Of a DNA stretch of 64,000 bases, positions 1,378-23,818 are shown piece after piece. This DNA comes from Pleurostoma richardsiae. Lineage: Eukaryota; Ascomycota; Sordariomycetes; Calosphaeriales; Pleurostomataceae. Each line of letters starts with the position of its first letter. Position 1 is the first letter of the stretch. The stretch covers positions 1,054,001 to 1,118,000 of the forward strand of contig JANBVO010000001.1 of the NCBI GenBank assembly GCA_030052745.1. The letters run 5' to 3'. A program made the position numbers and the translations under genes. The notes beneath the pieces are model-generated. The model saw only the letters and a program-made list of their open reading frames with translations, did no database searches and was not told the DNA's origin.

Positions 1378-2778
1378 ATGCGCTTGATTCGTACGGGCTC
1401 GCTTGAGCTCAAAGAGTTCACGGGAGACATCTGCCCTTACTCGATCCTTTCACATACCTGGGGGGATAACGAAGTCACCTACCAAGATTTGCGAGACGGG
1501 CGTGCTACAGAACGGGGAGGCGGCTACGAAAAGCTCAAAAGCTGCGCCCGCGCAGCAAGCTCGCTCAATTCCAAACATATTTGGATTGACACATGCTGTA
1601 TTGATAAAACCAACGGTGCCGAGCTCAGTCACTCTATCAACCAAATGTATGAGTGGTACGGAGAGGCCACTGTCTGCCTGGCTTATCTGGTCGACGTGCC
1701 GTCCCACGATGATCCTCTCGTACCAGGATCTCGCTTTTCCAAAAGCAGATGGTTTACTAGGGCCTGGACCCTTCAAGAACTCATCGCACCACGAGAGATC
1801 ATCTTCTTCGCCAACAACTGGACGAGAATCGGGACTAGAACAGAACTCTCGGGCGTTATATCCAGAATTACTGGTATACCTGTGAAGTTCTTGCTAAGGG
1901 AGTCTCACCTCAGAGAAGCGAGCGTCGCACAGCAAATATCCTGCGCTTCGAGGAGACAAACAACGGTAGTGGAAGACATCGCCTACTGCCTACTGGGAAT
2001 ACTGGAAATCAACATGACCCTAAATTATGGAGAACGCGAAAATTCCTTTCGGAGACTTCAGGAAGAGATCATCAAAAAATCGGACGACCAGAGCATCTTC
2101 GCCTGGAGAGCAAGCGAGGACGTTGAAGTAGTCAAATTTGATGGTCCGCTGGCATCCTCCCCGGCTTCTTTCCGGCGGTCGGGCAATATCATCAAAACCC
2201 CGCTTGCCCAGGCTGCAGAGCTTTCGATGGGTTTTCAGACTCCCTTTAGTCTCAGTAATAAAGGACTTCATATCACAGTACCTCTGGTACAAACCAATCA
2301 AGGGGTTCTGGCTATCCTCGGCTGCAGCGACGAAACCGCGAGCAACAGTGGGCGGACGGCAGTCTGGCTGAGGGCCGTATCTGCAAATGGGAGCCTGTAC
2401 CAAAGAATCAAGCTCGGCAAGCTAGCGACGGTCGACCTGGATGACATACGAAAATTCCACTACCAACACATCTGCATCCAGTTCACCTATCCTCACCAGG
2501 TGAATCCATCCCGTCTCGCAAATACGAGCCAACGCCTTCTTTCCCTCGAAGACATCTCTCGGCCTAATCTTTCTCCCTCGACATCTATCCAAGCCAGTCT
2601 TCAACCTGCGACCATTCATCAAGCCGCTCCCCATCTCGAAAATTTGGTTTGGGTGCTTATGCTGGGGTGGAATTTGATAATGGCCATGATATACATTTTG
2701 CCTGTCTCCATTAGCTGGCAAATGTCTGCCAGCTCCTTGTGCGTAGCTATCGCGACAATGGGATGGGCGGTACTCTGA
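1378..2778 (+). CDS. HET-domain (heterokaryon incompatibility) protein with C-terminal membrane segment
   Basis: A single uninterrupted frame of 466 residues. The N-terminus (MRLIRTGSLELKEF, then YSILSHTWGDNEVT) is the hallmark opening of the fungal HET domain. The domain continues through IWIDTCCIDK, the MYEWY motif and RAWTLQELIAP, so it covers roughly residues 1-170. HET domains trigger cell death after fusion of incompatible hyphae and are structurally related to TIR domains. The middle (residues 170-420) shows no recognised repeat or NACHT motif. Residues about 420-466 hold two hydrophobic stretches (LVWVLMLGWNLIMAMIYIL and a final one), suggesting membrane anchoring, which is less usual for the family. 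The ATG chosen is the family's normal start. It faces the 3' end of the permease at 3140 and is unlikely to belong to the metabolic cluster. Confidence 0.85.
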   Translation: MRLIRTGSLELKEFTGDICPYSILSHTWGDNEVTYQDLRDGRATERGGGYEKLKSCARAASSLNSKHIWIDTCCIDKTNGAELSHSINQMYEWYGEATVCLAYLVDVPSHDDPLVPGSRFSKSRWFTRAWTLQELIAPREIIFFANNWTRIGTRTELSGVISRITGIPVKFLLRESHLREASVAQQISCASRRQTTVVEDIAYCLLGILEINMTLNYGERENSFRRLQEEIIKKSDDQSIFAWRASEDVEVVKFDGPLASSPASFRRSGNIIKTPLAQAAELSMGFQTPFSLSNKGLHITVPLVQTNQGVLAILGCSDETASNSGRTAVWLRAVSANGSLYQRIKLGKLATVDLDDIRKFHYQHICIQFTYPHQVNPSRLANTSQRLLSLEDISRPNLSPSTSIQASLQPATIHQAAPHLENLVWVLMLGWNLIMAMIYILPVSISWQMSASSLCVAIATMGWAVL

Positions 2779-3139: not shown

Positions 3140-5139
3140 TTAAACGCGTAGCTCCTTGCTCTCTACCTGCCCACCATCGACCGTAGTAACTTCATGTCCT
3201 TCCAGGACCTTACCTGCCTCCGAGTCCTCGTCGGAGCAGATTGCCTCCAGGTACGGCTCGTGGATGCGAGCGCCCTCGGGCGGGAAGATGGTGGCCACTA
3301 TGCTGTACGTGATGAACCCGCCCAACCAGCCTGTAAATACGTCCGTCAGTACTGCCCGAGAACCGAATGGTTGAGAGAAACGGGGCACCACTTACCGATA
3401 AGGAAGGTCATCTGGAAGATACGGCTCCACGCCTGGCCGTAGTCCTCGCCGCGCACCGCGGCGGCCAGCCCCGGCAGGGACATCCAGATGAGCAGCACCC
3501 AGCACCCGATGGCGCGCAGGTTGAAGCCGCCCGTGTACCAGTAGATGCTGGACTTGTTGCCGATGTACAGATCTGGCACCTTCCAGTTGCGGCGGCGGAT
3601 GACCCAGAAGTCGGCCATGTACATGCCGGTCAGGGGGCTGAGGAAAAGGCCGATGGCGGACAGGACAGTTGTGAACGTCGCCGCGGAGTTGACGAAGTTC
3701 CAGGGGCAGACGGCAAGGCCGATGCTGGCTAGGAGGATGGACCCACGGCGGGCGTCGAGGTACTGCGGCAGGACGGAGGTCAGGTCCATGCCGGCGGCGA
3801 CCGTGTTTAAGGAGATGTTGATCTAGCACTTTTCGTCAGTATTTCGGAAGCCCACCAACCGGATTTCAGTTTGCTTACCGCCAACTGGCTGACGAACCAG
3901 CCAAAACCAGCGAAGAAGGTTCCCGCACGAGCCGCCGAGCTGTAGTTGACGTCCTGGATCTTAAGCAGCAGCGTGATGGGCTGCCAGATAACCTCGCCGT
4001 ACATCTCCCGGCAGGCGCTGGTGACGAGGATGCCGAGCGTGGCAACGACGGTAAGGCCAACCGGGCTGGCAATCCACATGCCGATCCAGACTGCACTGGG
4101 CTTCTTGGCATAGCGAGACCAGTCGGCGTGGCGGACACTGGCGCCGGTGTAAGCAGAGCAGAGGATGCAGATGGCCTGCAGGAAGACAAATGCGCGGTTC
4201 CTGCGCATCGAAGTTAGTGAATGTCGAGAATTCATGGTCCTGAAAGCACTGTAGACTCACGCTGGAGTGAGATCCTTGGTCGGAGACAGCACTTCTCCTG
4301 GTCCGTGGTTGGTGACCATGGCCCAGATGAACATGCCGACGATCGTTGACAGAACCATGTAGAAGGAGATGCGGAAGAACATTGGCAGTCTGTAGGGAGG
4401 AATGAAGAGGAAGCCGTAGAAGATGACTTGGTAGATGAGCGTTCCGATCAGAGCCCGAGTCGTGATGTTCGCGCTGTGAATGTCAATACCGGGCTGCAAG
4501 AAGTGATCTGGTAAACTTACCTCTCGGGAATAGTGTTCTTCATCCTGTGGAAGGTTGGGAATATCGAGGAGAGCATGACTTCCATGGCCAGGCCGCCCCA
4601 GTAAGATTGCATGCCGCAGCTGTTTCCATGTTAGAAAATTCATGCTCCTTAGCAAATCTTCAAGCCGAATCACGTACTAGATGCAGTTTGTGAAGCACTT
4701 CAGCACCACAACAATGTAGCTTCCGTACATGCCAAAGACGGTTCGGCTGAGCATAGGGAAGCCCAGATGGTACTTTCTACCGGGCTCACCGCAGGTATGG
4801 GCGACAACAGCGCAGATGAAAACAGCGACGATGACCGCGCCGATCGACTCGGCAACGTTGAGGCCATTGGCAATGAATGTTCCTCCTTTAGACCAGAAAC
4901 TGGCTGAAACTGCTCCGGTAACCCTGTTGTCGTTCCCGGTCAGCATGAGCTCGCTTGTAAGCCGGGGAGAGTACTGAGTCTCACCAATACGCCACAAAGG
5001 TGTTCGTCGTGTAAGTTCGGTTCTTGGGCAGCACCGGGAGAATATCCTGGTTGGTCCATCGATCAATGCGACGGTGGTCCTCGTTGTCCTTGATGGCGAT
5101 AGCCTCCTTGGCTCTCCGTAGGGCGTCGGTGAATGCCAT
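3140..5139 (-). CDS. NCS1 (Fur-type) nucleobase/allantoin/hydantoin permease
   Basis: Seven exons on the minus strand: 4985-5139, 4678-4923, 4521-4619, 4261-4473, 3879-4200, 3396-3822, 3140-3330. All introns are GT-AG, 51-61 nt or similar, and the joined frame gives 550 residues. The product starts MAFTDALRRAKEA and contains family landmarks: IDRWTNQDILPVLPKNRTY, the GESIGA-like segment (VAESIGAVIV), CGEPGRKYHLGFPMLSR, VLKCFTNCIYCGMQSYWGG, and NFVNSAATFTTVLSAIGLFLSP, spread over about 12 membrane spans. The Fur branch of NCS1 imports allantoin, uracil, uridine or purines, and bacterial NCS1 Mhp1 carries benzyl-hydantoin. The neighbouring racemase, hydantoinase and carbamoylase make a hydantoin-like substrate the best guess. 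That substrate is inference; the family call is firm. The cytosolic C-tail is acidic. Confidence 0.9.
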
Positions 5140-6018
5140 GTCGCCGCTTGGTGAATTGTCGAGTTGTGTTGACGCTCTGGCCCCTGCGAAGTGACAACGA
5201 CAACGACAATGGAGTCCGAGATATTATAGGTCATCCGTGTACTGCAAAACAGACACAACTAAACTAATTCAGCAGGCAGATAAGAAGACCGGGGTTGGCG
5301 GCTCGGTGCACACTGGATTAGGGCTCTGCACGCGCGCAAGGTTCTGCGTGGCGTTGACAACACGGCGCACGGCTTGGCACCTCGGGTCGCTGTGGAAATC
5401 CGGGGAGGCCTAGCCAAGTGACTTGTCGAGGCTGATTGCTTATCTTTACCCCTTGACGATACGTAAGATAGAGAGATACGTTGGCCGTCGGCACACGCGA
5501 TGGAGTCGGTCTCCACATGGCACATAGGCCTGCCCTTCACTTGCGGATCGGGGTCCGGCCGGCGCTCTCAGCTAGCACGGGGAGCACAGCAAGTTGCTGT
5601 CTCTTGGGCCATTGAGACTACTGACTAGCATATTTTCGGCCAATAGAGGAAACACAGGAACAAGGGCAAAGTTATCTATTCCTACGGGCTCAGAGAGACG
5701 GGCAGCGAGTTGGTGAGTTGCTCGTGTCATGCAAAGTCTGGGCTGTTTCCAGGGTTGAGTCATGAACCGCCCCGGAAGGATTGATCCTTCACAAGCGTTT
5801 CTACTCCAAGACATCTACAGATATTGTTATGCTCATATGAATCACTAAACACCAGCGTTCTTCTTTAATAATGACTGTATTTGCTAATCCCCCAGAACAA
5901 TTGAAATTGGACAGTGACAGACTAATGACATCGGACAGATCATCAGAAGGACAACACGGGGTGCATGTTGCCCGTAAGCTATCAGTATTCTATGACCTTG
6001 CCCGTACTACTTGAATCG
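5140..6018 (-). promoter_or_regulatory. Permease promoter region and racemase 3' flank
   Basis: This 879-base gap lies upstream of the permease ATG (5139) and downstream of the racemase stop. It holds three WGATAA-type words: 5278-5283 (+), 5440-5445 and 5672-5677 (both minus). Such words bind AreA/Nit2 GATA factors that switch on nitrogen scavenging. The count is only slightly above chance for this length, so regulation by nitrogen is a hypothesis. No gene is seen. Confidence 0.3.
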
Positions 6019-6831
6019 CTAAAGCCATTCCTGTCCTCTTCTCTCCCGGCCGGCAGCCGCGCTGCGATACGAACCTCCCTTTGCCGTGCCCAGACCTTCC
6101 CGTACCAATGCTGTCAAGAAGTGGACTCCCATAGCAACGCCGTCCACTACCATGGCCTGGCGGCCCTCCATATCAACAGCCTTCCTGCACGCCTCGTGCA
6201 TCTCCGTCATGCCCGCGCAGCCGAGGCAGATGCAGTCCGCTCCCTTGTCGACCAGCTTCTTCGCTGCCGTAGCCAGTCCCGCGTAGACCACACTCTTGGG
6301 CTTAGACTCCAGCTCCAGCACTGAGATGTGGCCGGTCTCGCAGCCGACAGAGTAAGCGGCGAAGCCGTAGTCGACGGTCGACTTCGCGTGCAGGACGCTG
6401 GACCGCTCACTGGTAGTCACAATGCCCAGGCGGTCGCCGCACATGCGGCTCGCGTACAGGGCGGCTTCCATAATGCCCATGGCCGGCTGTGTGTACTCCT
6501 CCCGGAGCATGGCGATCAGCGGATGCGCCGAGAAGCACGCGACCAGGAAGCCGTCGAACCGACCGGGGCTGCCCCGGACCAGTGGGGCCAGGGCCCGGAA
6601 GCAGTCTGCTGCCGAGAGGGTCGCGTCTACCCTGCCTTCGACGGCGCTGGGGCCGGAGGGCGGGCACGTGAAGCCATAGACCGTGACGTGCGGAGGCAGC
6701 GTGGACTCGATGCTGCGCAGGCAGGCGGCGGTCATGGAAGGGGTGCAATTGGGGTTGATGAGCAGGATGTTGATGGGCCGGGTGGACTGACCCGTCACCG
6801 AAGGGAGGCTCTCGGCCGCCGTCGATGCCAT
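6019..6831 (-). CDS. Asp/Glu/hydantoin racemase family protein (hydantoin or allantoin racemase-like)
   Basis: An intronless gene of 270 residues. The start is set at MASTAAESLPS because the conserved fold begins at PINILLINPNCT (about residues 19-30); the open frame continues upstream to 7374, but that part is Arg/Pro-rich and unlike the family. The two catalytic cysteines of the superfamily are visible: Cys99 in VACFSAHPL and the second in CLGCAGM (around residue 207). GIMEAALYASRMCGDRLGIVTT matches the hydantoin-racemase/DCG1 branch. In bacteria this enzyme interconverts L- and D-5-substituted hydantoins, letting a stereospecific hydantoinase consume both. Fungal DCG1 relatives racemise allantoin. 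The hydantoinase and D-carbamoylase 3-6 kb away favour the hydantoin role. Lack of introns contrasts with the intron-rich permease. Confidence 0.85.
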   Translation of the reverse strand: MASTAAESLPSVTGQSTRPINILLINPNCTPSMTAACLRSIESTLPPHVTVYGFTCPPSGPSAVEGRVDATLSAADCFRALAPLVRGSPGRFDGFLVACFSAHPLIAMLREEYTQPAMGIMEAALYASRMCGDRLGIVTTSERSSVLHAKSTVDYGFAAYSVGCETGHISVLELESKPKSVVYAGLATAAKKLVDKGADCICLGCAGMTEMHEACRKAVDMEGRQAMVVDGVAMGVHFLTALVREGLGTAKGGSYRSAAAGRERRGQEWL

Positions 6832-7479
6832 AGCCGAAGTTTGGATTTCGGGCAGTGATCTGGCTGTTGCCACGGGCTGAAACTGTGATCGTGTCCTGCT
6901 GGTACCTCCTCTATTCCTGTACGTTATAGTACTGCATCTAGGCCGTCTAGTCCCCTTGCCCGTCTCGCCCGGCGTTGGTGGTCTTCGGCACGGCGAATAT
7001 TCGAGAACATCGATCCATATTGTCCGGTGTCCCAAATCTCCATGCGCCGTGTGGGCGCCGTGTACACACCTGCAACTAGACGCCGCTGGCCGACGGGCAG
7101 GGTGACGGCGTCTTATCAGGGGTCCCCAATGTGGGCCGGCAAGCCCGATCCTCCTCCCCGGCGCTCCACAGCCAGATAAGGGTCGGCTCATGAACGGCGG
7201 GCACCGGGGCCAGCTGTGGGTTTCAGTTCCATCGATGAGCGGGCGCCGTGCCGTCTCTGGATCATGCCATCTCAGCTTCAATCGGACCTCAATCGGCCTT
7301 GACGCAGCTACGGAGGCGAAATCACCGGTGGCCTTAAGACTTGTGCACAGCAGCGAAGATCGTGCAACAAACACTAATTAAGTCGTTGCTGCGATAACCA
7401 CAACGCTTGAGTAGGTCGATTGACATTGTCGACTGTTCATCTCAAACCACAGCCAAGTACACCTTTGTTCTTCGTCGCC
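6832..7479. promoter_or_regulatory. Divergent promoter between racemase and dioxygenase
   Basis: A 648-base head-to-head intergenic region. Two strong GATA-factor words occur in opposite orientation about 55 bp apart: CTTATCAG at 7112-7119 (minus TGATAAG) and AGATAAG at 7174-7180 (+). Two such words are close to the chance expectation, so this is only suggestive of AreA/Nit2 control. Several CGG triplets are present but no clear spaced palindrome for a Zn2Cys6 regulator was found by eye. Confidence 0.35.
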
Positions 7480-8783
7480 ATGCCTCACTCAGTCACTACA
7501 GTTCTCAGCCCCGCGGATGCACCCATGGAGGGTGTCGCCGGTGTCATCGACGGGAAACTCGTACTTTCGCAAGGCATCTCCCGTACGCTCCGCGCCGGAG
7601 GCGTAAGCGGAAACTTTGACAAGATCCCTATCATTGACCTCTCACCACTCACCTCCGGGACGGCCACACCCGCCGACATGGACAGGCTCATCGAGGAGCT
7701 CCGCGATGCTTGCATGCGGGCCGGCTTCTTCGTCATCAAGAACCACGGCATCGACTGGGCAATTGTCGAGCGCGCCTTCGAGGGGCTTAAGCAGTTCTTT
7801 GAACTTCCCGCAGAGAAGAAGATGAAGGTGCACCAGTCTCTCAGCTCATCCTTCATGGGCTACGAGGAGCCATACTACACCAACGTCGATCGCTTAAAGA
7901 AGGGCGGTAAGTTGGCTGTTATCTACGGCACGAGATATGAGCCTTCAACTGACGCTGTTGGTACAGATCTCAAGGAGTCCATGACTACCGGCTATGAGCC
8001 GGAGCTCGATCCGGAGGGTGCGGGCTACCAGCCCGAGATCCTCTATCGGAAGAACCAGTGGCCAGATGATGAAGACGCGCCGCTTTTCAAGCCTGCTATG
8101 CGCGAGTACCGCGCCGCGTGCCTGGGGCTGATGCGGAAGTTGACGAGGACCATGGCCAAGGTGATCGGAATTGACGAGAAGTTCTTCGACAAGAAATTCA
8201 CCTACCCAGTTGCCGGCATCCGCGGGCTTTATTACCCGCCCCAGGATCCCGACGACGATGACTCTACGGGTCTCGGAGCGCATACCGATGTGCAATGTGA
8301 GTCGTCCGTCATCTCCAAACTTGCATTCTACACGCTAACCATCTGCCAGTCATGACTATGATAGCCCAGGACCCCTACGACGTCGAGTCCCTCGAGGTGC
8401 TCAACGCTGCGGGCCGCTGGATCCGCCCCAAGCTGGAGCCCAAAACTTTCGTCGTCAACCTGGGCGACATGATGGCGCGCCTTACCAACGACGTCTACCA
8501 GAGCACCGTGCATCGGGTGCGCAACCGGACGGGCCGCCAGCGGTACTCGCTGCCCTTCTTCTTCGGGCTTAATAACGACGAGCTCGTCTCGCCGCTGCCC
8601 CAGTTCATCACGCCCGAGAGCCCCGTGAGCGAGGGCTACGAGCGCGGAATGACGGCGTACGAACACTACAACCGCCGCATGCAGCGCGCTCACCACAAGC
8701 ACCCCACGGCCACGGGGAAGTGGGAGCCGGGCCTGCCCAAGGGGATGACCAAGGTTGACGGCGTTGTTGTCGAGGGCATGTAA
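7480..8783 (+). CDS. 2-oxoglutarate/Fe(II)-dependent dioxygenase (isopenicillin-N-synthase-like fold)
   Basis: Three exons (7480-7906, 7967-8296, 8350-8783) give 396 residues. The first intron is 60 nt, in frame and stop-free, so it could be missed; removing it restores the family motif KKGDLKES...GYEPELDPE. The second intron is removed to give GAHTDVQFMTMIAQD. N-terminal DIOX_N domain: KIPIIDLSPL, then RAGFFVIKNHGI. The iron triad is the His and Asp of HTD plus the distal His of YQSTVHRV; the 2-oxoglutarate Arg lies in RQRYSLPFFF. The start MPHSVTTV is preferred to the upstream ATG at 7420. Substrate cannot be read from sequence. The divergent promoter shared with the racemase suggests hydroxylation or side-chain trimming of a hydantoin, or of the D-amino or 2-oxo acid made from it; that is inference. 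Confidence 0.88.
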
Positions 8784-9188
8784 AGGAGTCATGTAATGAT
8801 ACAAACATAGGGAATTAATGCAACTTTATGACAAATGAATAGACCGTCAAGTCTATATGCTCAGCTGTCCTTGTGTTCTAGCTGCAAGATACACTCGAAC
8901 AACACCGTGGGTTACTCACTCTTTCAAAACTCTTCCATTGTAAAATGTAGACTTCCCCGCTGAACTCACATAGGCATGGGACCCGGTACTGCTAGACATC
9001 AGGAGTCGGGACAGAAACACAAGGCCAGACTTGGGTTTGTGTCTTGTAATATAAAATGAAAGGATGCCCGCATAGCACACGGGCATAAAAGTTGTCTCGG
9101 TATCATGTCTCCAGTTCTATTTTTCTAGCACGCTGCTCTATTCACTCGTACTCCTCTTTCCACTATGTACAGACTTGGCACCGCTTCC
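8784..9188. other. Convergent 3' region
   Basis: A 405-base gap between the dioxygenase and hydantoinase stop codons. It probably holds the two 3' UTRs. No gene, repeat or structured RNA can be supported. Confidence 0.5.
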
Positions 9189-10970
9189 CTACATCCAGTA
9201 CCCCCACTCCCCTCTCGCCATGCCCGTCGCCGTCCTCCCCGTCATACCCGTCAGGATCGTCGACTTCTCCCTCTTGAGGAACTGCCCATCTCCCATCTTC
9301 ACCTTAACGCCGCCGGCGTCGCGGTCCCATGCCAGCTGTCCCCGCAGGAACACCCAGCGCGGCCAGTTGCGCACCTCGACGCCCTCGAACGGCGTGTAGT
9401 CGATGCGGTGGTGCAGGTCCTCGTTCCTGATGACGAACCTGCGCTGCTGCTTCTTCGCGCCGTTGACCCCGTTCGCCGCGGCGGACGACGCAGCGGCCGA
9501 GGGCGCCTCCTCCGGGTACCAGATGACGATGTCGGCGTCAAAGCCTGGCAAGAGGCTGCCCTTGCGGCCGTCCAGGCCGTACAGCTTCGCCGGGTTCGTC
9601 GAGGTCAGCTGGACGAACCGCGGCAGGGATATGCGCACCTCGCCGCCCGCGTCGGCCGGGCCGGCCGTGCGGTTGAACAGCAGCGGCAGCCGCGTCTCGA
9701 TGCCCGGCAGGCCGTTGGGCACGCTGCGGAAGTCGGCGTGCGGCTTCCCGTCGCCGTTCGCGGCGCAAAATCCTTTCATCTTGCCGCAGGGATGGTCGAA
9801 GGCGCTGGGGGCGTGGTCCGACGACACGACGGTGAAGGTCCCGTTCGCGAGGCCCTGCCACAGGTACTCCAGGTCCCGGGGGTCGTGCCGGAGCGGCGGC
9901 GCACAAATATTCTTGGCGCCGACGAAGTCGTCGGGGCCGGACCGCAGCCGGTCGCTCAGCAGGTATAGGTACTGCGGGCACGTCTCGGCGTGGATCGGAA
10001 GTAGCCGCTGCTGCGCCTCGGTGACATGCTTGATCGCGGCCGGGGCGGACATGTGCACGATCAGGATCGGGGTGTCGGTGACCTCGGCGAGACTGATGGC
10101 CCGGTATGTCGCTTCGCTCTCCGCGATCTGCGGCCGGGCGACGGAGTGGAAGAAGCTCTGTGTGTTGTTGTGTTCTGCGAGTCGCCTGTTGTTTCCACAT
10201 TAGCTTCCATTACCATCAAGGGGAGTGTGACTTCGCCCTGGCGAGAGCTTACTTTGTGATCTGCTCAATCATATCGTTGTTCTCAGCGTGGATCATTGTC
10301 GTGATCCCGAGGGCCCTTGCTCGCATCATGATGTTGAACAAGTCTCCATCTCCCAGCTTCAGGGGCTGGTAGGTCATATAGAGTTTCACGCTCGTGATCC
10401 CCTGACCTACTAAGGCGGGCAGCTCATTCTCAAGAACTTCCTCATTCGGGTTGGTGATAATGGCATGGAAGCCATAGTCGCAGAAGGCATTGCCCGTTGC
10501 CTTCTTGTGGTACGCTTCGATGGCGGGCCATATGCTCTCTTCCTGCCGCTTCTGGGACGCAAATGCGATCACCGTTGTGTTTCCGCCAGCGATCGCCGAT
10601 CGCGTACCGCTTTCCCAGGTGTCTCCTGTCGGCGCATTATCCTGCTCGATATGAACATGCGAGTCGACACCACTGCGGCGCATGTTAGCTCAGTAGTCGC
10701 ATGTGATGAATGATGTGCCACATATGGAGCTTTCGACTTACCCTGGCGTGATATAAGCACCTTCTGCGTCGATGATCTGTGTCTCACTGCCTGCTTCAAG
10801 GTCCCGGCCTACCATTGCGATCTTGCCATCTCGCACGCCGATCTCGACGCCAGGCGGAAGGATTTCCGTCGCCGTGACCTAGGACCAAGATCTATCAGTA
10901 TCACGAGACAACGAGCGAAGTGCGCCGGGCTTACAATGAGACCATTTCTGATAATGAGGTCCAACATCAT
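9189..10970 (-). CDS. D-hydantoinase / dihydropyrimidinase
   Basis: Four exons on the minus strand: 10935-10970, 10742-10878, 10253-10672, 9189-10185, giving 529 residues; start MMLDLIIRNGLIV (second ATG at 10967 also possible). All metal-centre landmarks of the amidohydrolase superfamily are present in order: GGVDSHVHIEQ (two His), TSVKLYMTY (the Lys that is carboxylated), MIHAEN, LIVHMSA, and SSDHAP (Asp). Other family signatures are YPRxL-like CPQYLYLLSDRL and NGLPGIETRLPLLFN. The enzyme opens cyclic ureides: 5,6-dihydropyrimidines in the normal host pathway, or D-5-monosubstituted hydantoins to N-carbamoyl-D-amino acids. The adjacent D-carbamoylase and D-amino-acid oxidase point to the hydantoin reaction. 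The last intron (10186-10252) and the others are ordinary host introns, so any acquisition is not recent. Confidence 0.9.
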
Positions 10971-11664
10971 GAAAGGAAAGCTCGGCCAAGCACTGAGGCT
11001 TTCTGGATTCTGGAATGCCCACCTGCTAAACAGTCACGCAGAACTCGAAGGATGGACGTGTCCGGCCGCCAATGTGCAGGTTGCAAGCGAGAGGAAGCTC
11101 CGGGAAAGTGAGCAAGCAACCTTAGCCCACCGCGACCGACTGGGATCAGCTACCATGCTCCCTCGTGCAGGGCACGCTGCACCCGCATCTAGGGGTCCTT
11201 TGCAGCGCTCTAGCCTGCATCTGCATCTGCATCGCCCAGCCGTTAGTAACGCCTCTGACAAAGTGGTGGTGGCCGTCGGCCAGGGGGTGTGGGTCTCAGG
11301 CGGCGCCAGCGCCGGTCGCCCCCCAGAGATAACGGGCAGCGTCTTCTTTGGTCCATGGCCCGGCGCCTCCGCGCGCTACCAGCCATCGCCGCGCCGGTGG
11401 TCCACGGGCAGTCAATCGCCCGCGAGACGGGAGAAGATGCAGCAGATGCGACTGTCGAGGCGGCACGGCGCCGGCGGCTCGTTGTTGGACCCTGCAGATC
11501 AATCGGCAGAGCCACAAATAATGTACAGGAGCTTAGAACCGACGAGGGGAACAAACGTAGCGAGAAAGGGGGAGACAGTGATAACAGACGGACAGACAAG
11601 AACCTAGGCACTCTAAGAGACGCATCTCGAGCCTCTGTATCGTATCGGCATTTACAACCCCATC
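10971..11664. promoter_or_regulatory. Divergent promoter between hydantoinase and carbamoylase
   Basis: A 694-base head-to-head region. GATA-type words occur at 11327-11332 (AGATAA) and 11579-11584 (TGATAA). A short CTGCAT tandem run lies near 11216-11232. A long frame from 10936 to 11607 crosses the region but has no domain and an early start inside the hydantoinase exon, so it is not called. Confidence 0.3.
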
Positions 11665-12723
11665 ATGGCCACCTCCCGAAAGCTCACCGTCGCCGCCGCG
11701 CAGCTCGGCCCCATCCAGCTGGCAACGCCCCGTTCCGAGGTCCTGAGCCGCATGCTCAAGCTCCTTGACGACGCCGCGAGCGCCGGGGTCCGGCTTGTCG
11801 TCCTCCCCGAGCTCGCGCTCACCACCTTCTTCCCCCGGCACATCATCGAGGACCCCGCCGAGGTCGCCAAGTTCTACGAGGTCGAGTCGCAGGAGCAGAC
11901 GCTGCTGGCCAGCCCGAACACGAAGCCGCTGTTCGAGAGGGCTAAGAGCCTCTGCCTAGATGTCTCGCTCGGCTACGCTGAGCGGTGGACGGATGGCGAC
12001 AAGACGACGGACTACAACACTATGGTGTACTACTCGGCCGCGGCGGACAAGATCCTCGCCAAGTACCGCAAGGTTCACCTCCCGGGCACCAAGGAGCCCG
12101 TCAGGCAACCCAACGTTGCAGAGCAGCTCGAGAAGCGGTACTTCACTCCCGGCGACCTCGGCTTCCAGGCCTTCCGCGCCCCGGGCCTAGTCAGCGGCGC
12201 CCTCAAAGCCAAGGACATCGTCGCGGGCCAGGAGGCGTCAAGCGAGGGCAAGGGCGACCCGATCCTGGGCATGCTCCTCTGCAACGACCGCCGCTGGCCC
12301 GAGGGCTGGCGGTGCTACGGCCTGCAGGGCGCCGAGCTGGTTCTGCAGGGCTACAACACCCGGGGCTACGCGCCCCAGAACCCGGGCACGCCGGAGGAGC
12401 AGGAGCAGCTGGCCGTCTTCCACCACCGGCTCTCCTGCCAGGCGGGCAGCTACCACAACGCCTGCTTCAGCATCAACTGCGGCAAAGCGGGGTACGAGGA
12501 CGGCGGCCTGCTCATCGCGAGCTCCATCATCGTCGCGCCGGGCGGCAAGATCATCGCCGAGTCGAAGACGTCGGACGATGAGCTGGTCATTGCCACGATC
12601 GACTTAGCAGAGTGCCGTTTCAACAAGGAGGGCGTGTTTAACCTCGGGAAGCACCGGCGCGTGGAGCACTATAACCGGATTGTCGAGCAGACGGGTGTCA
12701 TAGAGCCCCCGTTCTTAGAATAA
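11665..12723 (+). CDS. N-carbamoyl-D-amino-acid amidohydrolase (nitrilase superfamily)
   Basis: Intronless, 352 residues. The carbon-nitrogen hydrolase catalytic triad is visible as Glu49 (VVLPELALTTFFPR), Lys136 (YRKVHLPG) and Cys206 (LLCNDRRWPE). The phrases LPELALTTFFPR, RKVHLPGTKEP and CNDRRWPE belong to the D-carbamoylase branch of bacteria such as Agrobacterium and not to beta-ureidopropionase. The reaction is N-carbamoyl-D-amino acid to free D-amino acid plus CO2 and NH3. It is about 50 residues longer than the bacterial enzymes (roughly 304); the extra length includes a segment around residues 175-203 just before the active Cys. Codons are strongly G/C-ending and there are no introns, unlike the hydantoinase next door. 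This fits an origin by transfer from bacteria, but that needs a tree. Confidence 0.92.
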   Translation: MATSRKLTVAAAQLGPIQLATPRSEVLSRMLKLLDDAASAGVRLVVLPELALTTFFPRHIIEDPAEVAKFYEVESQEQTLLASPNTKPLFERAKSLCLDVSLGYAERWTDGDKTTDYNTMVYYSAAADKILAKYRKVHLPGTKEPVRQPNVAEQLEKRYFTPGDLGFQAFRAPGLVSGALKAKDIVAGQEASSEGKGDPILGMLLCNDRRWPEGWRCYGLQGAELVLQGYNTRGYAPQNPGTPEEQEQLAVFHHRLSCQAGSYHNACFSINCGKAGYEDGGLLIASSIIVAPGGKIIAESKTSDDELVIATIDLAECRFNKEGVFNLGKHRRVEHYNRIVEQTGVIEPPFLE

Positions 12724-12879
12724 TGATGATCGATGGATGGTAGCTCTGAGGGTGATATAGGTTGAAAAGATATGCATTGGCGCCATAGGAATCAAAACAT
12801 CGGGTATAGATACCATAATCCAGACTACTTCCCTGTCTCATCCCATAGCCCGGACTCCAGTACTCCTGTTCGTTGTCCC

Positions 12880-15343
12880 TCAGCGTGAGCCGCCTTTCCC
12901 AATCTGCCACTCTCTGAAGAGAGCCTCCGTCCGTCGTAGACTCGCGCTCATTAGCCCCTTCTGACCGCCAGCGCCCCTCTCCGCGAGTCGTAGTGCCCAT
13001 CTCCACCTCTTCGCCAGGGCTTGGAGCTCAGAGTGTACCCCCGAGAAGAAGAAGCTGGAGTCTTGTGACGGACTGCCTGCGCTAGAAGGACTGTAAGCCT
13101 GAGCAAGTGCCGCAAAATGAGTCGGTGATTCCTGTGGCGGCGAGAAACCTGTTGGAGTAGCCCCCTGCGACGCCTGGGTGAGAACAAGAAGATGCATTAG
13201 GAATGTAGAGCCGATAGCAAAGTTGTGCTTAGACCCTGCAGAGCGGTTAGCATATGGCGCGAGAAGGACATAAGAGCCCGTCGAGGATGGGGGGTGGGAG
13301 GGGCTTGAGCATACAGCTGTGCCAGAAGCTGTCCCAGTCGGCGGCTGTCAGACTCTCGATAAAGTTGACCAGCTCCTTAGCCGATCCTAATGCACCCTGG
13401 ACGACCGCGACTGCTCCCTCGCTATCCCAGAAAGATGGCTGGTCCGATAAGCTCTGCGCCGTGAGCGCGGCCATGGCGAGAGGTCGTAATAAGGCTCGGA
13501 ATAGGGATAGGTGTGCGACAACGTACGCCAGTCGTAACGAGCCGGTGCTGCTGAGGTCGTTATCTATCCCACTGCTGCTTCCAGGTTGGGATTCGGCAGT
13601 GCTGCCAGCGCCATGTGTGAGCCGTAACGACGGAGGGAGGGACTGATGCCACTGCATAAGCCGCGCCCGGAGTGGCTTTGCAGTGTTGAGGGCTAACTGA
13701 AGATCGCCAGTCGTGCTCCTCATAGCGCGAACTGTGAAGAAGGCCGTGTTGATGTCGCGAAGGATAAGAGTGAGCGGTACGAGGTAGTAGAACTGATGCG
13801 CATGTCGCTCACTGCCACGGACGTCTTCCGATCTGACACCATCATCGCGGAAGTCATCCATTTCTAGCAGTGGCACATCGCATTGATCCAGGTCAATATG
13901 ACTGGGCATCCCTTGCCCAAAGGCTGTCCAAGTTTCCGTGACAAATACCGCCCACCACAGGCGTTTTCGAAGGCGCCGCTCCCACGGTTCGAGCATCTTC
14001 CAGCACGTCGGGTCCCTGTTCAAACCTAGGGTCTGGCAGCTTGCTACTACCATACCGCAGAGCCGCCAGTTGACGGATGCCTCTCCGAACAGATCCTCGC
14101 GCGCCTGACGCTGCAGGACGAGGAGGGACGCCTGAATAGTGCTGAGGCGGACGTCGTGGGACTCTAGCTGGAGAGCGGTCCAGGCGATGCGAAACACCTC
14201 AGTCGGAGATGGCGCATCAGAATGCTCCACGCATAGCGCGTCGTCATATATGATGAAGGGGAGGCTCGTCGCGCAGATGGCGGCAACGAACGCTAGGGGC
14301 ATCTTGTCCACGTCATCATCGGTGGTGGGAATTTGGCGGGAGCTTAGTATGGGGAATGACGGGCTGATGAAGTGAAAGAATAATCGTATGAGCTCGCGGG
14401 CAAACGAATTGCTAATCAGTTTCCTGAACTTCAAGCGCAGCTGGTCTACGGAGGCCAGTTCAAGCTTAGGCTCCGTATTCTCCAGTCGAGGCGTGTCAGC
14501 AACGGTAAATACGGAGGGTGGTTGGAAATCGGCTGTGGATGCTTCGAGCGGGCTCGTGTACTGATATGTAATGGCAGTGTAAGGAGACTCGGACTGCAAA
14601 TGTGCATTACGGCGCCTCCTCGAGATGAGATAGCTGTCGAGCTCTCCGGAAGGCCCCACAAACCGATAAGATCGGCGTTGCTGATGCTCCAGGGTGATCG
14701 TCTTCAGAAGACCACTCCCAGTGTCCGGCGTCTGTGGTTCCAGCCTCAAGGCTTGACGCTCGGCTGGATGCTGCTGGAGCGCCTGGGTCTCCATCGTCTC
14801 ATGCTGAGGGTAGACCGGCGCGCTGCCCGAGTTGGCTATGTCGCCGAGTCCGAGTTCCATGGGGCCGAGTTGATCGTACAGCACCTGGATCGAGCTGAAG
14901 GGATCCGATACTGCCCCCGCCGACCCATCCGTCCCCTGCGCCGGAAGCTGGTCGTGGGCGTCGAAGCTGAAGTCGAAGTCGGGGATCGCGAAGTCCCCGA
15001 CCGGGATCATCAGCCCCGCATCGTGCTGCACGTCTTGGTGCTCCTCGTCCTGCCCGGGCTGCCGCTGCTCGCCATCCTCCGGGACGGCTGCCGGCCGCGC
15101 CGGCCGTCGACGTAGACCGGGCCCGTTGACGAAGGTACACGGGCGGCCCTTGGACCGGCAAAGCTCACAGGGCGGCTGAGTCTCGATGGCACACGCAACT
15201 TTGCGCGCGCGGCACAGGTCACAGGGCCTGTGGCGCCGAGATTTGTACCGGCGACTGCCAATGGGCTGTGAAGATAGCTGGGGCTGAGGCTGAGGCTGGG
15301 ACGGCTGCAGGGTCTGAGACGGTTGTGACAGCGGCGCTTCCAT
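12880..15343 (-). CDS. Zn2Cys6 transcription factor with fungal-specific middle homology domain
   Basis: Two exons, 13315-15343 and 12880-13235, joined over a 79-nt intron (GTATGC donor, CTGCAG acceptor) to give 794 residues. Without the splice the frame stops at 13247; with it the conserved FWHSWSKHNFAIG segment and a C-terminal LAKRWRWALRLAE motif are recovered. The binuclear cluster is Cys41-x2-Cys44-x6-Cys51-x7-Cys59-x2-Cys62-x6-Cys69, preceded by a Gln/Pro/Ser-rich tail and basic residues. The middle homology region includes LIRLFFHFISPSFPIL and WRLCGMVVASCQTLGLNRDPT. It sits inside the cluster between the carbamoylase and the D-amino-acid oxidase and is the obvious candidate for the pathway-specific activator, perhaps binding CGG-type sites in the divergent promoters; targets are inference. 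Confidence 0.88.
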
Positions 15344-15932
15344 AGTCGTGCGGGGTTGGAGACGGACGGCCGGGCGCTCATGTGTCGGAAGACACGCGCC
15401 CTTCCTGGTCCAGGCGAGATGCTGTTATGGATAGGACGGCATGGAACCCGTTTCTATCAATCCCTGTCCGCCCAGCAGGATTCGCTGTCGATAAGGCTGA
15501 TAGTCACGGTGTGGTCCTGCGTTGTTGTTCGCCGCCGCCGGTGAGAAATGGGGCGATGGTCCTCAAGATGTCACGTGTTACTGCCAAGCTGACAACATCG
15601 GGGTTAGGGGTAGGGTTGAAGTTCCCGCAATCGGCTGCTCTAATCGGGTTGGAACTTTCATATAAGTTATAGGCATCATCTTGTCACTGGGCTTACATTT
15701 CCGTGTTCTTGGTCTGTTCCTTTTCCAACCTGCGTTCGGTATCATCCTCCTCTACCTGTCATCACTACTGAAAACGCCTCGTCTTACCATCACAGACTCG
15801 AGGATTCTATTTTGTCTAGATAAGCCGGATATTCCTTTATTCGTTCGATTACTTTCGTTTTTAGTATTCTACATCCTCATGGTCGGCCGCATCATGTGGC
15901 CAATAGACGCGGCTGTCTATCTCTGCGTCATA
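15344..15932. other. Promoter of regulator gene and 3' flank of oxidase gene
   Basis: 589 bases. Upstream of the regulator ATG (15343) the DNA is GC-mixed and turns AT-rich from about 15640. A hydrophobic 85-residue frame at 15681-15938 (+) runs into the oxidase 3' end, lacks homology that I recognise and is not called. Confidence 0.4.
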
Positions 15933-17235
15933 TCATAGTCTTGCCTTCGACTGGTTCATCATGTGGTCCACGGCATGTTTGGCAGTTCCCCTACGGGCCA
16001 CGTCAACTATCCGTATTTTGCATATGGAGGTGCAAGGAACACTCACCAGGATGATTGGTACCCTGCTCCTCCAGCTCCATAGTTGTGTACCACGAGCTTG
16101 CCATCGATGGTTTCTGGCTCGACTCGAGGTCCTCCTTTCCTGCTCGCTATTGGAGGCGATTAGCAAATAAGCACATAGTTGTCGTGAGAGGCGACCACGT
16201 ACGCCTTAAGCCGACAGCATGATATATAACCTTCAAGTCCTCGGGCTTCCCCAACTCAGGGGCTAGGGCACAGCATCGCTTCTTGATGTCTTCTGCAAAG
16301 CCCAAGTCCGGTTCTCCGTTCCAGTCGTTGTCCACCCGGCATCCGCCGAGGATCACCCCTCCAGACGGGTGTCGCGGGAACACGTATGTCGTGTCGCTAT
16401 CGACCCTTCGAGGGGATCGGAAGTACATGGTCTTGAGCGGCGTCTTGGGTGTCTCTACAAGCATAACTTGACCCTACAAAGCCAGAGAGGTCAAGCTGTA
16501 AGCATATCATACGTAGCACCAGGTTAACAGATGAAAGTCACAAACCCTTGTCGGATACAGATTCTTGTCTTCGACCCCCCTGAGGTGATAGGAGCCCAGC
16601 CCCGTACAGTTGAAGTAGGCATCCGCGGGTATGTCCTGGAACACTTGCCGAATGTCTCCATAACTGGTTCTCCTCATCTCGATGCCTTGCTTGAGACACT
16701 GCGCGTTCAACCTTACCAAAATCATGTGAGCAAGAGACCGGTAGAGTTTACAAGGCAACGTGGGGCCGGAAACATACCAGCAGAGGTACCCCTGTGTATT
16801 GACCATGAATGTTGAAACAACCATCCCGAAGAACGACCCGCTGGGCAGCTCGTCCTTCGGGATCGGTTGAATGCCACCTGTAAGCTCATCGTACCATATC
16901 TTTCCGGTGCCTTTGCTGAGCACTTCCGCCTCCTCTATAGGCCTGTCAAAGAACGCCCGGATGGGCATGCGCGTGATGGCGGCCTCGGGGACGTTGTCGG
17001 CGAGGTAGGCGAAGCGGCGGTATGTCTCTGCGTCCCACTCCTCCTGCACGCCGTTGTCCGTCGCCATCGTCATCCAGTTCGCGCCGGCCCAAGGGGAGCA
17101 GTACTCCACGCTGCGATCACCGGGGAAGAACTTGGCGGCGATGATCACTTTCGCGTCCGGTATCCGGCTCTTGACTTCCAGGGCGGTTGAGAGGCCAACC
17201 ACCCCGGCGCCGAGGACGACATACTGCTTCGGCAT
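15933..17235 (-). CDS. D-amino-acid oxidase (FAD), peroxisomal-type
   Basis: Five exons: 16778-17235, 16546-16711, 16203-16473, 16047-16146, 15933-15990; the joined frame is 350 residues, the normal length. The FAD Rossmann motif is VVLGAGVVGLSTA near the N-terminus. EYCSPWAGANW, GQVMLVETP and VGLRPSRKGGPRVE (residues about 295-308, carrying the substrate-carboxylate Arg) followed by HNYGAGGAGYQSSWG are diagnostic of D-amino-acid oxidase. The C-terminus SKARL ends in ARL, a recognised PTS1 variant, so import into peroxisomes is likely, where catalase can remove the H2O2. The reaction is D-amino acid + O2 + H2O to 2-oxo acid + NH3 + H2O2. It would take the product of the carbamoylase. It diverges from the aldehyde dehydrogenase at 17872. 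Confidence 0.92.
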
Positions 17236-17871
17236 TACGATCTTAGTGACGGGTTTCGTTTATGACATGTAAGTGCCACAGAGGGATTCTAGCTTTGAGT
17301 GGCTGGTGGTACCGGGAACCGAGTACGGATTCCGGAGATATTACTATTCCTTCACCACCAATAGTTGTATCAAGATAGTAATCGAGTAAGACCGCTCGCT
17401 AGTGCCAGCCGTCCTAGAGCGGCCCGCTTGCGCTCTCTGGCGCGCCGATTACGGCGAGACGGCCGCACCTTTGTCGCTTGGCCGTGTGAAGCCCCACACG
17501 CGCATTGTGCAACGGCCGGGCAAAGAACGGACGGCATCGGCTGGACCCCTAGAGATGGACTAGTCGTGCCGATATTGTGGCCGTCTTCCGAGGAGTCAGG
17601 GAGTGAGCCTGGATCCTCCTCCGTGTGTCGCCGCGCCTAGTCTCCATTGGTTACAACGCGCAGCTGTAGCCTCTGTAGAGCAAACGTGGGGAACTGCCCC
17701 CCTTGGGAAAGTGGGTGGCTATCAAGCAAGCTATCTTCTCCGCAGGACTCCTTTAGCGCACAGCAGCACGCTCGCAGGTCTTCCACAGGCAAATGTGTGT
17801 TTGCGTCGCGACTCTTCCGTTCACAAAAACATCCCGGAGGAGGACATAAGACTGACGGAAGACCATCCATC
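17236..17871. promoter_or_regulatory. Divergent promoter between D-amino-acid oxidase and aldehyde dehydrogenase
   Basis: A 636-base head-to-head region. One GATA-like word (AGATAG, 17373-17378) was seen. The shared promoter suggests co-expression of oxidase and dehydrogenase. No gene is supported inside it. Confidence 0.35.
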
Positions 17872-19602
17872 ATGCCTGCGTTGAAAGACCCGTCGCTGCT
17901 CGTCGACAAGAATTACATCAATGGAGAGTGGATAGACTCGGAATCGAACAAGACATTCACTGTCACAGGTTCGCAGGAACCTGCCTGAATGCCCCGCGTG
18001 CCGGCTGACCATCCCCTCTTAGATCCCGCAACCGGCGAACTCATCGGGACTTGTCCGGAGTCCACCACCAAGGATGCACAGGCCGCGATAGACGCAGCCG
18101 CCACTGCGTTCCCAGCCTGGAGGTCTCTGACAGGCCGGGAGAGGTCACGCATTCTCCGGCGCTTCTATGAGCTTGTCATAGAGAACAAGGCCGACTTGGC
18201 CACCATCATCGCCTGGGAGAATGGGAAGGCCCTGCCCGACGCCAATGTGGAAGTTATGTTGGCTGCAGGGTTTCTGGAATGGTTTGCCGAGGAGGCGCCC
18301 CGGATTTATGGAGATGTAGTCCCTCACAGCGCCCAAGGGAACCGCATCACTATTCTGAAGGAGCCAGTCGGAGTATGCGGGCTGATCACACCGTGAGTGC
18401 TCCCTCTTGACTTTTGACTCAACCGACCCGCCTCAGCTACTGACGTCTTTCTTCCGAAGTTGGAACTTCCCGCTTGCCATGCTTGCGCGTAAGATCGGCC
18501 CGGCTCTCGCCACTGGCTGCACCACCGTAGTGAAGACGGACGGCGAGACACCTTACTCTGGCAACGCAATGGCTCTCCTGGGAGAACGTGCCGGCGTGCC
18601 CAAGGGCGTGATCAACGTGGTGACGGCCCTCAACAACACACCCGCCATTGGCGAGCTGCTCTGCCAGTGCGACACGGTCCGCAAGATCTCCTTCACGGGC
18701 TCGACTCGCGTCGGCAAGATCCTGATGAAGCAGTCCGGCGATTCCCTGAAGAAGCTGAGCCTCGAGCTCGGCGGCAACGCCCCGTTCATCGTGTTCGAGG
18801 ATGCGGACCTCGACGTTGCCGTCACCGGCGTCGTGGCCAGCAAGTTCAAGGTCTCGGGGCAGACGTGCGTGTGTGCAAACCGGATCTACGTGCACGAGAG
18901 CGTCTACGACGAGTTCACCCGACTCCTCGTTGAGAAGGTGAACGGCTTCAAGGTCGGGCACTCGTTCCAGGAAGGCACCACGCATGGTCCATTGATTGGA
19001 CCGCGGGCGATAGAGAAGGTCTCGCACCACGTGCAGGACGCAGTCAGCCGAGGAGCTAAGGTTGCTGTAGGGGGACAAACGATCGCCTCACTAGGTACGT
19101 GTCCTTTCGCCTTTCTCTACGGAGGACGAACGTAGCTGACAGGAGCACAGGCCCGAACTTCTTCCAGCCAACAGTATTGACGGATGTTGATGACAGCATG
19201 GCCGTGGCCCACGAGGAGACCTTTGGGCCGATCGCACCCCTGTTCCGATTCAGCTCTGAGGAAGAGGTAGTCGACGCCGCAAACAAGGTGGATGTCGGGC
19301 TTGCGTCCTACATCTTCACCAACGACCATGCCAGAGTGGCCCGAGTGACAGAGACCCTCGAGTTCGGTATGGTGGCGGTGAACACGGGAGTGATCGGTGA
19401 TACTGCAGCGCCGTAAGACTTCAACCCCTCTTTAGTGTAGCCTTCTGTCACCTGCTAACGCATTTCTGATGGCTGTAGGTTTGGCGGCATAAAACATTCC
19501 GGCTTCGGTCGCGAGGGAAGCAAGTATGGTGTGGATGACTACCTACAGCTAAAAACCGTTGTCTCGGGCGGAATATACGTGAAGCATCGCGTTAGGACCT
19601 AG
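17872..19602 (+). CDS. NAD(P)-dependent succinate-semialdehyde-type aldehyde dehydrogenase
   Basis: Five exons: 17872-17968, 18023-18392, 18460-19094, 19151-19412, 19479-19602, giving 495 residues. It opens [20 protein letters not shown] and joins cleanly to [13 protein letters not shown]. Landmarks: [27 protein letters not shown] (nucleotide site), [12 protein letters not shown] (general-base Glu), [13 protein letters not shown] (nucleophilic Cys), [11 protein letters not shown] and [17 protein letters not shown]. The last two are typical of the SSADH/GabD branch, which oxidises succinate semialdehyde to succinate in GABA breakdown. In this cluster it may oxidise an aldehyde arising from the amino-acid side chain or from the decarboxylated 2-oxo acid; substrate is inference. 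No C-terminal peroxisomal signal is seen (ends RVRT). Confidence 0.92.
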
Positions 19603-23275: not shown

Positions 23276-23818
23276 GGATCTGGATCGTTCCGGGCCTTCG
23301 AATGAGTAGACTTCTTCGTGCGCGATGTGGACTGATGTAAGGAAGAGAAAAACGAGTTGCGCCTAATGTGGCAGAGGAGCGAGAACATGCAGCCGAAGGT
23401 CGGCGATAACTGCAATCATGCCATTGGCCAACTGTGACTCAGGTGACAACGTGCATTTGGCTCAATAAATGTAAGTTAATCCTGATCATACCATCCTTCT
23501 TTAGCCCACCGATCGCAAGCTTCAGTGACGTGACATGACCTACACGATACGCCGAGATGACACTGCAACTTCTCGCTTTCGGAAAACGGCTTGTTCTTGT
23601 CAACAGAGCAGCGCATATAGAGATAGGCAGAGTCTGAGTCGAATATTTTCCAAGGATGAACCTAATTTGCGGCGCTGCCATCCATTCGGGGGATTCGAAG
23701 CTGGTACTACAAAGTCTGGATGTCTTTGGCATGCAAGATTCCTTAGACAACTAACCCCCTAATATCATAGACTACAGCAGGTGTTGTTTTCAACTAGGCC
23801 GATCAAACACCCATCGCA
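23276..23818. other. Intergenic region
   Basis: 543 bases between the start of the membrane-anchored gene and the stop of the PQQ dehydrogenase gene. Only short non-homologous frames are seen. Confidence 0.4.

Follow-up and report, generated by a model that had tools for sequence, protein, structure and literature searches.

A recurrent gene cluster of Pleurostoma richardsiae with a probable role in hydantoin catabolism via the D series

Hydantoin enzymes are industrial catalysts, and the closest described system for the locus treated here is the D-hydantoinase process of Agrobacterium and related bacteria, encoded in hyu-type loci. Among fungal nitrogen clusters, the yeast DAL cluster serves for allantoin. 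To our knowledge, no fungal hydantoin pathway has been described, and no cluster joining hydantoinase, carbamoylase, and D-amino-acid oxidase was found in the open literature searched on fungal hydantoin enzymes and clusters. In the ascomycete Pleurostoma richardsiae, eight intact genes, as obtained from splice models and Pfam matches, occupy positions 3140-19602 of the analysed 64,000-nucleotide stretch of contig JANBVO010000001.1 (the window). They would probably serve the catabolism of 5-monosubstituted hydantoins via the D series for nitrogen, with a D-amino-acid sink of their own. The cluster is recurrent and coherent; its function is a prediction.

The host genome comprises 39.4 Mb in 136 contigs, the window being part of contig C1 of 2,408,833 bases. 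Introns were chosen by splice-site score, reading frame, and junction peptide, with the single intron of the regulator picked by eye, and after splicing an open reading frame is obtained for all eight genes. The models of the hydantoinase (528 amino acids) and of the oxidase (350 amino acids) are letter-identical to the public P. richardsiae proteins P0121 and P0241, respectively. A first-pass annotation had placed eight genes at these coordinates. All of them are present as spliceable open frames, the modelled outer ends of the gene set are the same 3140 and 19602, and each of the family calls finds support in Pfam. Six of the eight genes are arranged as three head-to-head pairs (racemase/dioxygenase, hydantoinase/carbamoylase, and oxidase/dehydrogenase). 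The locus is composed as follows.

3140..5139, minus strand: NCS1-family permease, 550 amino acids, 7 exons (PF02133)
6022..6831, minus strand: Asp/Glu/hydantoin-type racemase, 270 amino acids, one exon (PF01177)
6832..7479, no strand: divergent promoter region racemase/dioxygenase, 648 bp (gene models)
7480..8783, plus strand: Fe(II)/2-oxoglutarate dioxygenase, 396 amino acids, 3 exons (PF14226 and PF03171)
9189..10967, minus strand: D-hydantoinase/dihydropyrimidinase-type cyclic amidohydrolase, 528 amino acids, 4 exons (PF01979, TIGR02033)
10968..11664, no strand: divergent promoter region hydantoinase/carbamoylase, 697 bp (gene models; pair also on contig C43)
11665..12723, plus strand: N-carbamoyl-D-amino-acid amidohydrolase (D-carbamoylase), 352 amino acids, one exon (PF00795, 1fo6)
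12880..15343, minus strand: Zn2Cys6 transcription factor, 794 amino acids, 2 exons, candidate pathway regulator (PF04082)
15933..17235, minus strand: D-amino-acid oxidase (DAAO), 350 amino acids, 5 exons, C-terminus ARL (PF01266, 7ct4)
17236..17871, no strand: divergent promoter region oxidase/dehydrogenase, 636 bp (gene models)
17872..19602, plus strand: succinate-semialdehyde-dehydrogenase (SSADH)-type aldehyde dehydrogenase, 495 amino acids, 5 exons (PF00171, TIGR01780)

The firmest of all family calls is that of the predicted D-carbamoylase. Its best structure match is the D-carbamoylase 1fo6 with 262 bits, while beta-ureidopropionase reaches only 35.5 bits; this contradicts a hydrolase of the beta-ureidopropionase type, which the first-pass annotation had named as a finding that would speak against its proposal. 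When the predicted structure was compared with the PDB, ranks 1-19 were all D-carbamoylases and rank 20 was an N-carbamoylputrescine amidase; the comparison relies on one model from 12 aligned rows with a mean predicted local distance difference test (pLDDT) score of 70.6, poor at residues 139-166 and 325-352, and used for fold matching only. Residues E49, K136, C206, and R209-R210, which are functional residues of the family, were located in the sequence. E49, K136, C206, and the CNDRRW stretch (its P-side neighbour excepted) are invariant in 12 aligned rows, with the window protein counted twice. A plasmid collection searched with the carbamoylase returned 145 matching records, all below 60% identity (best listed Roseomonas, 48.1%), and no sign of recent transfer there.

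On the D-hydantoinase/dihydropyrimidinase equivalog TIGR02033, the ring hydrolase scores above the cut-off (412.1 versus 393.25 bits); it lies below the cut-offs of the narrower PRK13404 model (524.4 versus 647) and of the allantoinase model (219.6 versus 357.85). Among solved structures, the yeast dihydropyrimidinase 2fty of Lachancea kluyveri comes first with 378 bits, followed by D-hydantoinases (1k1d, 298 bits), and the two best NCBIfam models carry the name dihydropyrimidinase. The earlier designation as hydantoinase stands at the level of family and equivalog; in the strict sense it would be tentative, a yeast dihydropyrimidinase being the closest solved structure. Residues H62, H64, K153, H185, H241, and D320, which have metal-site and carboxy-lysine roles in the family, are invariant in 22 fungal rows. 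A comparison of the hydrophobic pocket with that of the D-hydantoinase 1k1d was dropped, the loops being aligned with gaps, and no substrate claim is based on it. The idea of ergothioneine or hydantoin-propionate as source was likewise rejected, with 186.4 bits on the ErtD hydantoin-5-propionate model, far under its cut-off of 650; the open literature on hydantoin-propionate yielded nothing on its use by fungi. Hydantoinase_A (PF01968) is a different family from the ring hydrolase of the cluster. PMC5737690 concerns hydantoinase B/oxoprolinase.

The structure and NCBIfam matches of the ring hydrolase would be in line with catabolism of dihydropyrimidines of the uracil or thymine type, in which dihydropyrimidinase and beta-ureidopropionase would act and SSADH would convert malonate semialdehyde. 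An SSADH-type dehydrogenase is indeed present in the cluster; it passes the SSADH model TIGR01780 (672.0 versus 646.35), remains under the cut-off of the equivalog PRK11241 (617.1 versus 828), and gives 573 bits with the SSADH structure 4v6h. In addition, the Pfam description of the permease family includes uracil carriers. However, the amidase matches D-carbamoylases and not beta-ureidopropionase, in agreement with its fold, and neither a racemase nor a D-amino-acid oxidase has a role in pyrimidine breakdown. Candidates for that task exist elsewhere in the genome. A hydantoinase homologue on contig C50, which does not fall into the clade formed by the three cluster-type copies and whose partial frame scores 377.9 on TIGR02033, under the cut-off, is an alternative dihydropyrimidinase candidate, and M20 carbamoylase-type genes on contigs C65 and C69, which pass TIGR01879, could be beta-ureidopropionate enzymes. 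Dihydropyrimidine catabolism is judged to be quite improbable.

The racemase (159.8 bits on PF01177) carries the two cysteines that are catalytic in its family within the motifs VACFSAHP (from residue 97) and LGCAGMTE (from residue 203). It gives 75.5 bits with 3qvj, a putative hydantoin racemase, and 65.7 bits with the allantoin racemase 5lfd; these matches do not distinguish it from an allantoin racemase. The permease clearly exceeds the cut-off of PF02133 (275.1 versus 23.5 bits), stays under that of the NCS1 model TIGR00800 (334.1 versus 353.1), and matches also allantoin permease models, though far below their cut-offs. Both proteins would find a place in a route for allantoin use, composed of allantoin permease, allantoin racemase, and allantoinase in the manner of the yeast DAL cluster. 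Against this route stand the low score of the ring hydrolase on the allantoinase model and the presence of a separate allantoinase candidate (C43:558381-559904) with 410.6 bits on the same model; D-carbamoylase and D-amino-acid oxidase would be left unexplained. Use of allantoin by the cluster is highly unlikely. The allantoin and the pyrimidine readings are both weakened, since the genome possesses its own allantoinase candidate as well as M20 carbamoylase-type genes.

The nearest structure to the oxidase is the fungal DAAO 7ct4 (232 bits). It ends in ARL, a peroxisomal-type C-terminus, and an ending of the form [SAC][KRH][LM] is found in 72 of 120 listed relatives. The residues located in its sequence include R298 and R254. 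Its residue R254 aligns with Arg237 of human D-aspartate oxidase (DDO) and is conserved as R in 119 of the 120, while the alignment to human Arg216 is uncertain. In PMC8260693, Arg237 is described to attract D-Asp and to aid its binding. PMC6697736 describes a fungal DAAO that is highly active on D-Glu, and a figure legend there gives a marker position occupied by Asn in fungal DAAO and by His in DDO. At that position, placed by reading of the alignment, the P. richardsiae oxidase has Asn (AGANW), that is, the DAAO and not the DDO state. A route restricted to acidic side chains, leading from hydantoin-5-acetate or hydantoin-5-propionate to D-Asp or D-Glu, would draw on R254 and on the precedent of the D-Glu-active fungal enzyme; it is countered by the Asn marker, by the near universality of R254 in the oxidase group, which makes it not cluster-specific, by the uncertain Arg216 alignment, and by the score of the ErtD model. 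Such a restriction appears distinctly unlikely.

The dioxygenase is a DIOX_N/2OG-FeII protein containing the HTD, H, and RQRYS motifs of its family. Its best PDB match is 9ovh with 161 bits; thymine-7-hydroxylase was rejected as its identity, the thymine dioxygenase 5c3p giving 91 bits.

For the favoured pathway of hydantoin catabolism, we infer the substrate, the order of steps, the compartment, the regulation, and the roles of dioxygenase, SSADH-type dehydrogenase, and regulator. A 5-monosubstituted hydantoin or a similar ring would be taken up by the NCS1 permease, and the ring enantiomers would be interconverted by the racemase. The cyclic amidohydrolase would open the D form to the N-carbamoyl-D-amino acid, from which CO2 and ammonia would be released by the D-carbamoylase. 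The final step would be catalyzed, probably in the peroxisome, by the D-amino-acid oxidase, with conversion of the D-amino acid into the 2-oxo acid, ammonia, and H2O2. The SSADH-type dehydrogenase and the dioxygenase would probably act on the carbon skeleton or in an upstream modification, and the genes would probably be turned on by the Zn2Cys6 protein together with a GATA factor. The coherence of this scheme lies in its stereochemistry: known D-carbamoylases are D-strict, an L or racemic source would need a racemase, and a D product calls for a D-amino-acid oxidase.

Within the same genome, contig C43 carries a second triad at 3.6-8.7 kb, made up of the closest paralogues of racemase (69%), hydantoinase (73%), and carbamoylase (65%), in the order and orientation found in the window and including the head-to-head pair of hydantoinase and carbamoylase. 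The C43 racemase gene (3500-4340) stops near residue 243, and the tail that it lacks is matched at positions 1-158 of contig C109. Both breakpoints bear inverted copies of one end sequence, and for the neighbouring stretch C43:2600-3400 seven more matches (72-90% identity) occur in the genome; both the racemase gene and the assembly seem to have been broken by a repeat element. A third locus, on contig C83 (46.7-52 kb), encodes a carbamoylase (52%) that is found on a long branch, a hydantoinase (56%), and an NCS1 permease. Further along C83, a frame resembles a fungal transcription factor by appearance.

Linkage in other fungi was assessed from lists of the best 120 of 7,986 carbamoylase, 7,833 hydantoinase, and 1,346 oxidase hits, so that all counts are lower bounds. 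Contigs of equal size in two lists were taken as one contig, and positions within contigs were not given, so that for long contigs the result is linkage at best. Carbamoylase and hydantoinase occur on at least 30 common contigs, own genome included, and eight of these 30 are shorter than 52 kb (smallest 9,614 bases). Carbamoylase and oxidase share at least nine, own included, and all three are found on at least five, namely those of the own genome, Aspergillus ellipticus (167 kb), Geosmithia morbida (844 kb), Thozetella (1.1 Mb), and Aspergillus steynii (1.7 Mb), the species agreeing in all lists. The locus tags of carbamoylase and hydantoinase follow each other directly or at a distance of two in six named species, which are Pestalotiopsis sp. 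9143b, Diaporthe vaccinii, Claussenomyces, and Fusarium graminum, and likewise Anthostomella pinea and Parastagonospora nodorum (tags numbered in tens). Tags of carbamoylase and oxidase are adjacent in Phialemonium thermophilum (VTK73DRAFT_9903/9902) and three apart in Cladophialophora immunda (CLAIMM_01224/01227); the shared carbamoylase-oxidase contigs of Stachybotrys elegans (2.7 Mb) and Periconia (5.8 Mb) have little proof value. For A. steynii, the annotation has a single 767-amino-acid protein (P0124) that spans hydantoinase and racemase, perhaps a merge of gene models; either way the two are same-strand neighbours. The association of these genes is beyond chance, given the 30 shared contigs, the six species with near tags, and the duplicated triad. 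Gene content, families, catalytic residues, the duplicated triad, and the linkage in other fungi are directly supported. The core of racemase, hydantoinase, and carbamoylase proposed in the first-pass annotation is borne out by the paralogous triad and the shared carbamoylase-hydantoinase contigs, and its link to the oxidase by at least four other fungi in which the oxidase shares a contig with both hydantoinase and carbamoylase. A lack of synteny in every relative, which had been named as an argument against the cluster, was looked for, and shared contigs were found instead.

The regulator scores 89.2 bits on PF04082 and 19.8 bits on the zinc cluster model PF00172, below the cut-off of 21; a zinc-cluster spacing of C-X2-C-X6-C-X7-C-X2-C-X6-C starts at residue 41 (string located, spacing counted by eye). 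Possible binding sites were sought in the following regions.

5140-6021, 6832-7479, 10968-11664, 15344-15932, and 17236-17871: five cluster promoters, 589-882 bases each

They contain 18 HGATAR sites against a resampled mean of 7.2, with 18 or more in 1 of 2000 sets, the control not being matched to promoters. Three or more GATA sites occur in four of the five, as compared with 13 of 63 plain segments of 690 bases from other parts of the window. GATA (HGATAR) sites are a mark of nitrogen control in fungi, and the data fit control of the cluster by a GATA-type nitrogen regulator. For zinc-cluster motifs, 63 half-site patterns were scored against 500 sets resampled under a first-order Markov model. 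Two patterns are observed in all five promoters, and 14 of the 500 sets reach two. CGG-N8-CCG occurs in five of five promoters and is absent from five C43/C83 stretches examined; no 8-mer is common to four of the five.

Several findings weigh against a single hydantoin pathway encoded by all eight genes. The nearest solved structure of the hydantoinase is the L. kluyveri dihydropyrimidinase, with which it is grouped in the tree (91/86). In the fetched stretches, the C43 triad is without a dioxygenase match, and none lies between hydantoinase and racemase of A. steynii, provided the annotation is right. Among the eight nearest oxidases (P0242-P0249), three have listed carbamoylase and hydantoinase on the contig and five do not. 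A listed oxidase is found on the contig for only four of the nine window-type carbamoylases, own included; those without are from P. salamii, A. cavernicola, Xylariales PMI_506, Xylariaceae FL1019, and Grosmannia. Finally, the zinc-cluster motif is not beyond chance, as in 113 of the 500 sets one or more of the 63 patterns likewise occur in each of the five promoters, and the role of pathway regulator given to the Zn2Cys6 protein at first pass is not borne out by any shared motif exceeding chance.

The missing dioxygenase matches, the relatives' oxidases that have no listed partners, and a linkage of dioxygenase, SSADH, and regulator that was examined in the own genome would suit a hydantoinase-carbamoylase-racemase core with dioxygenase, regulator, and SSADH as chance neighbours. 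Yet the linkage of oxidase and carbamoylase is repeated in other fungi, the dioxygenase lies inside the triad and has a divergent promoter in common with the racemase, as SSADH has with the oxidase, an NCS1 permease is again found at the C83 locus, and GATA sites are enriched across the five promoters. That the locus does not represent one pathway is, on this evidence, unlikely.

As for the history of the genes, the bacterial set comprised the 80 best of at least 576 carbamoylase relatives, with 43-48% identity and, by their titles, mostly from Alphaproteobacteria. At an E-value of 1e-8, these loci include a hydantoinase match in 44 cases, a racemase match in 25, and both in 19. The 44 hydantoinase matches consist of 21 above 300 bits (39-42% identity), two cut by the locus end, and 21 distant ones (22-27%), and 10 of the 19 loci with both partners have a hydantoinase match above 300 bits. 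No oxidase was detected in any of the 80 loci, whether with tblastn or with a 120-member profile of fungal oxidases at 1e-3, an absence that applies to the stretches covered, since near-full 10-kb flanks were available for only 49 loci and nine were shorter than 10 kb in total; as a positive control, the profile recovered all five paralogous loci of the own genome. The core is the set known from bacteria, and the oxidase looks like an addition made in fungi.

In an author-selected carbamoylase tree of 44 rows (32 fungal, from 31 of 120 listed proteins plus C83, and 12 from the 80 bacterial loci), fungal and bacterial rows split at 100/99, compatible with a single origin. The fungal classes are interleaved, with seven label changes for Sordariomycetes and four for Eurotiomycetes. 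The window copy belongs to a clade of nine rows (100/99) with G. morbida, Grosmannia, two Xylariales, and four Eurotiales, the C43 copy standing apart. In an author-selected hydantoinase tree of 50 rows (24 of 120 listed proteins, three paralogues, 19 of 47 bacterial frames, and four PDB chains), the window copy forms a group with those of G. morbida, A. steynii, A. ellipticus, and P. salamii (99/91), and C43 is once more separate. The C83 copy branches below the window and C43 groups; C50 and the yeast dihydropyrimidinase are external to all of these, the yeast row being long and its placement unsure. These trees fit either transfer between classes or an old duplication with losses.

Tentatively, and with some doubt as to the whole, the cluster may be viewed as a self-contained, transferable fungal pathway that would channel racemic natural hydantoins entirely into the D series, with the D-amino acid formed in the cytosol, a dedicated peroxisomal oxidase, and an importer and regulator of its own; the unit would have been passed between Sordariomycetes and Eurotiomycetes, and its core multiplied within one genome. 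If hydantoin catabolism is indeed its function, the existence of many orphan "D-hydantoinases", racemases, and D-amino-acid oxidases in fungi would find a natural explanation, hydantoins or N-carbamoyl-D-amino acids would be indicated as genuine fungal nitrogen sources, and eukaryotic enzymes would become available for D-amino-acid work. According to PMC5169069, the Asp/Glu/hydantoin racemase family was transferred 17 times in eukaryotes, 15 of these events being into fungi, and no clear D-amino-acid role was found for the one racemase tested, in Candida glabrata; the cluster makes this puzzle testable.

In the surroundings of the cluster, a frame with a heterokaryon-incompatibility (HET) domain is present on the left flank (1297-2775, plus strand), and frames of 426 and 288 amino acids with no Pfam match on the right flank (21376-23362, minus strand). 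Frames for a glycogen debranching enzyme (33012-37457) and a glycerol-3-phosphate dehydrogenase (40041-41729) follow on the minus strand, as do, 37-42 kb off the cluster, an M20-family peptidase-type hydrolase (56923-58296) and a second Zn2Cys6 regulator (59802-61772).

Compared with the known systems, the P. richardsiae locus has in common with the bacterial hyu-type loci that the same three enzyme families are encoded close together; it differs in that the fungal genes are eukaryotic, mostly intron-bearing, and under separate and divergent promoters, and in that flavin D-amino-acid oxidase, dioxygenase, SSADH, and a Zn2Cys6 gene are added. The carbamoylase resembles that of Agrobacterium (1fo6, 1erz), with 38-42% identity in the fold alignments of ranks 1-19 and conservation of E49, K136, C206, and CNDRRW, while the fungal enzyme is longer by 48 residues, about 24 of which sit immediately before the catalytic cysteine, residues 172-200 being opposite five residues in 1fo6. 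The L. kluyveri dihydropyrimidinase is the closest solved relative of the ring hydrolase and falls on the same side of the tree, whereas the cluster enzymes form a 100/99 clade that includes two paralogues of the own genome and leaves the yeast enzyme outside, and their partner amidase is a D-carbamoylase. With the yeast DAL cluster, the locus would share an NCS1 permease, a racemase-like protein, and a cyclic amidohydrolase within a fungal nitrogen cluster, albeit with a hydrolase that is not an allantoinase by model score and with D-carbamoylase and oxidase as additional members.

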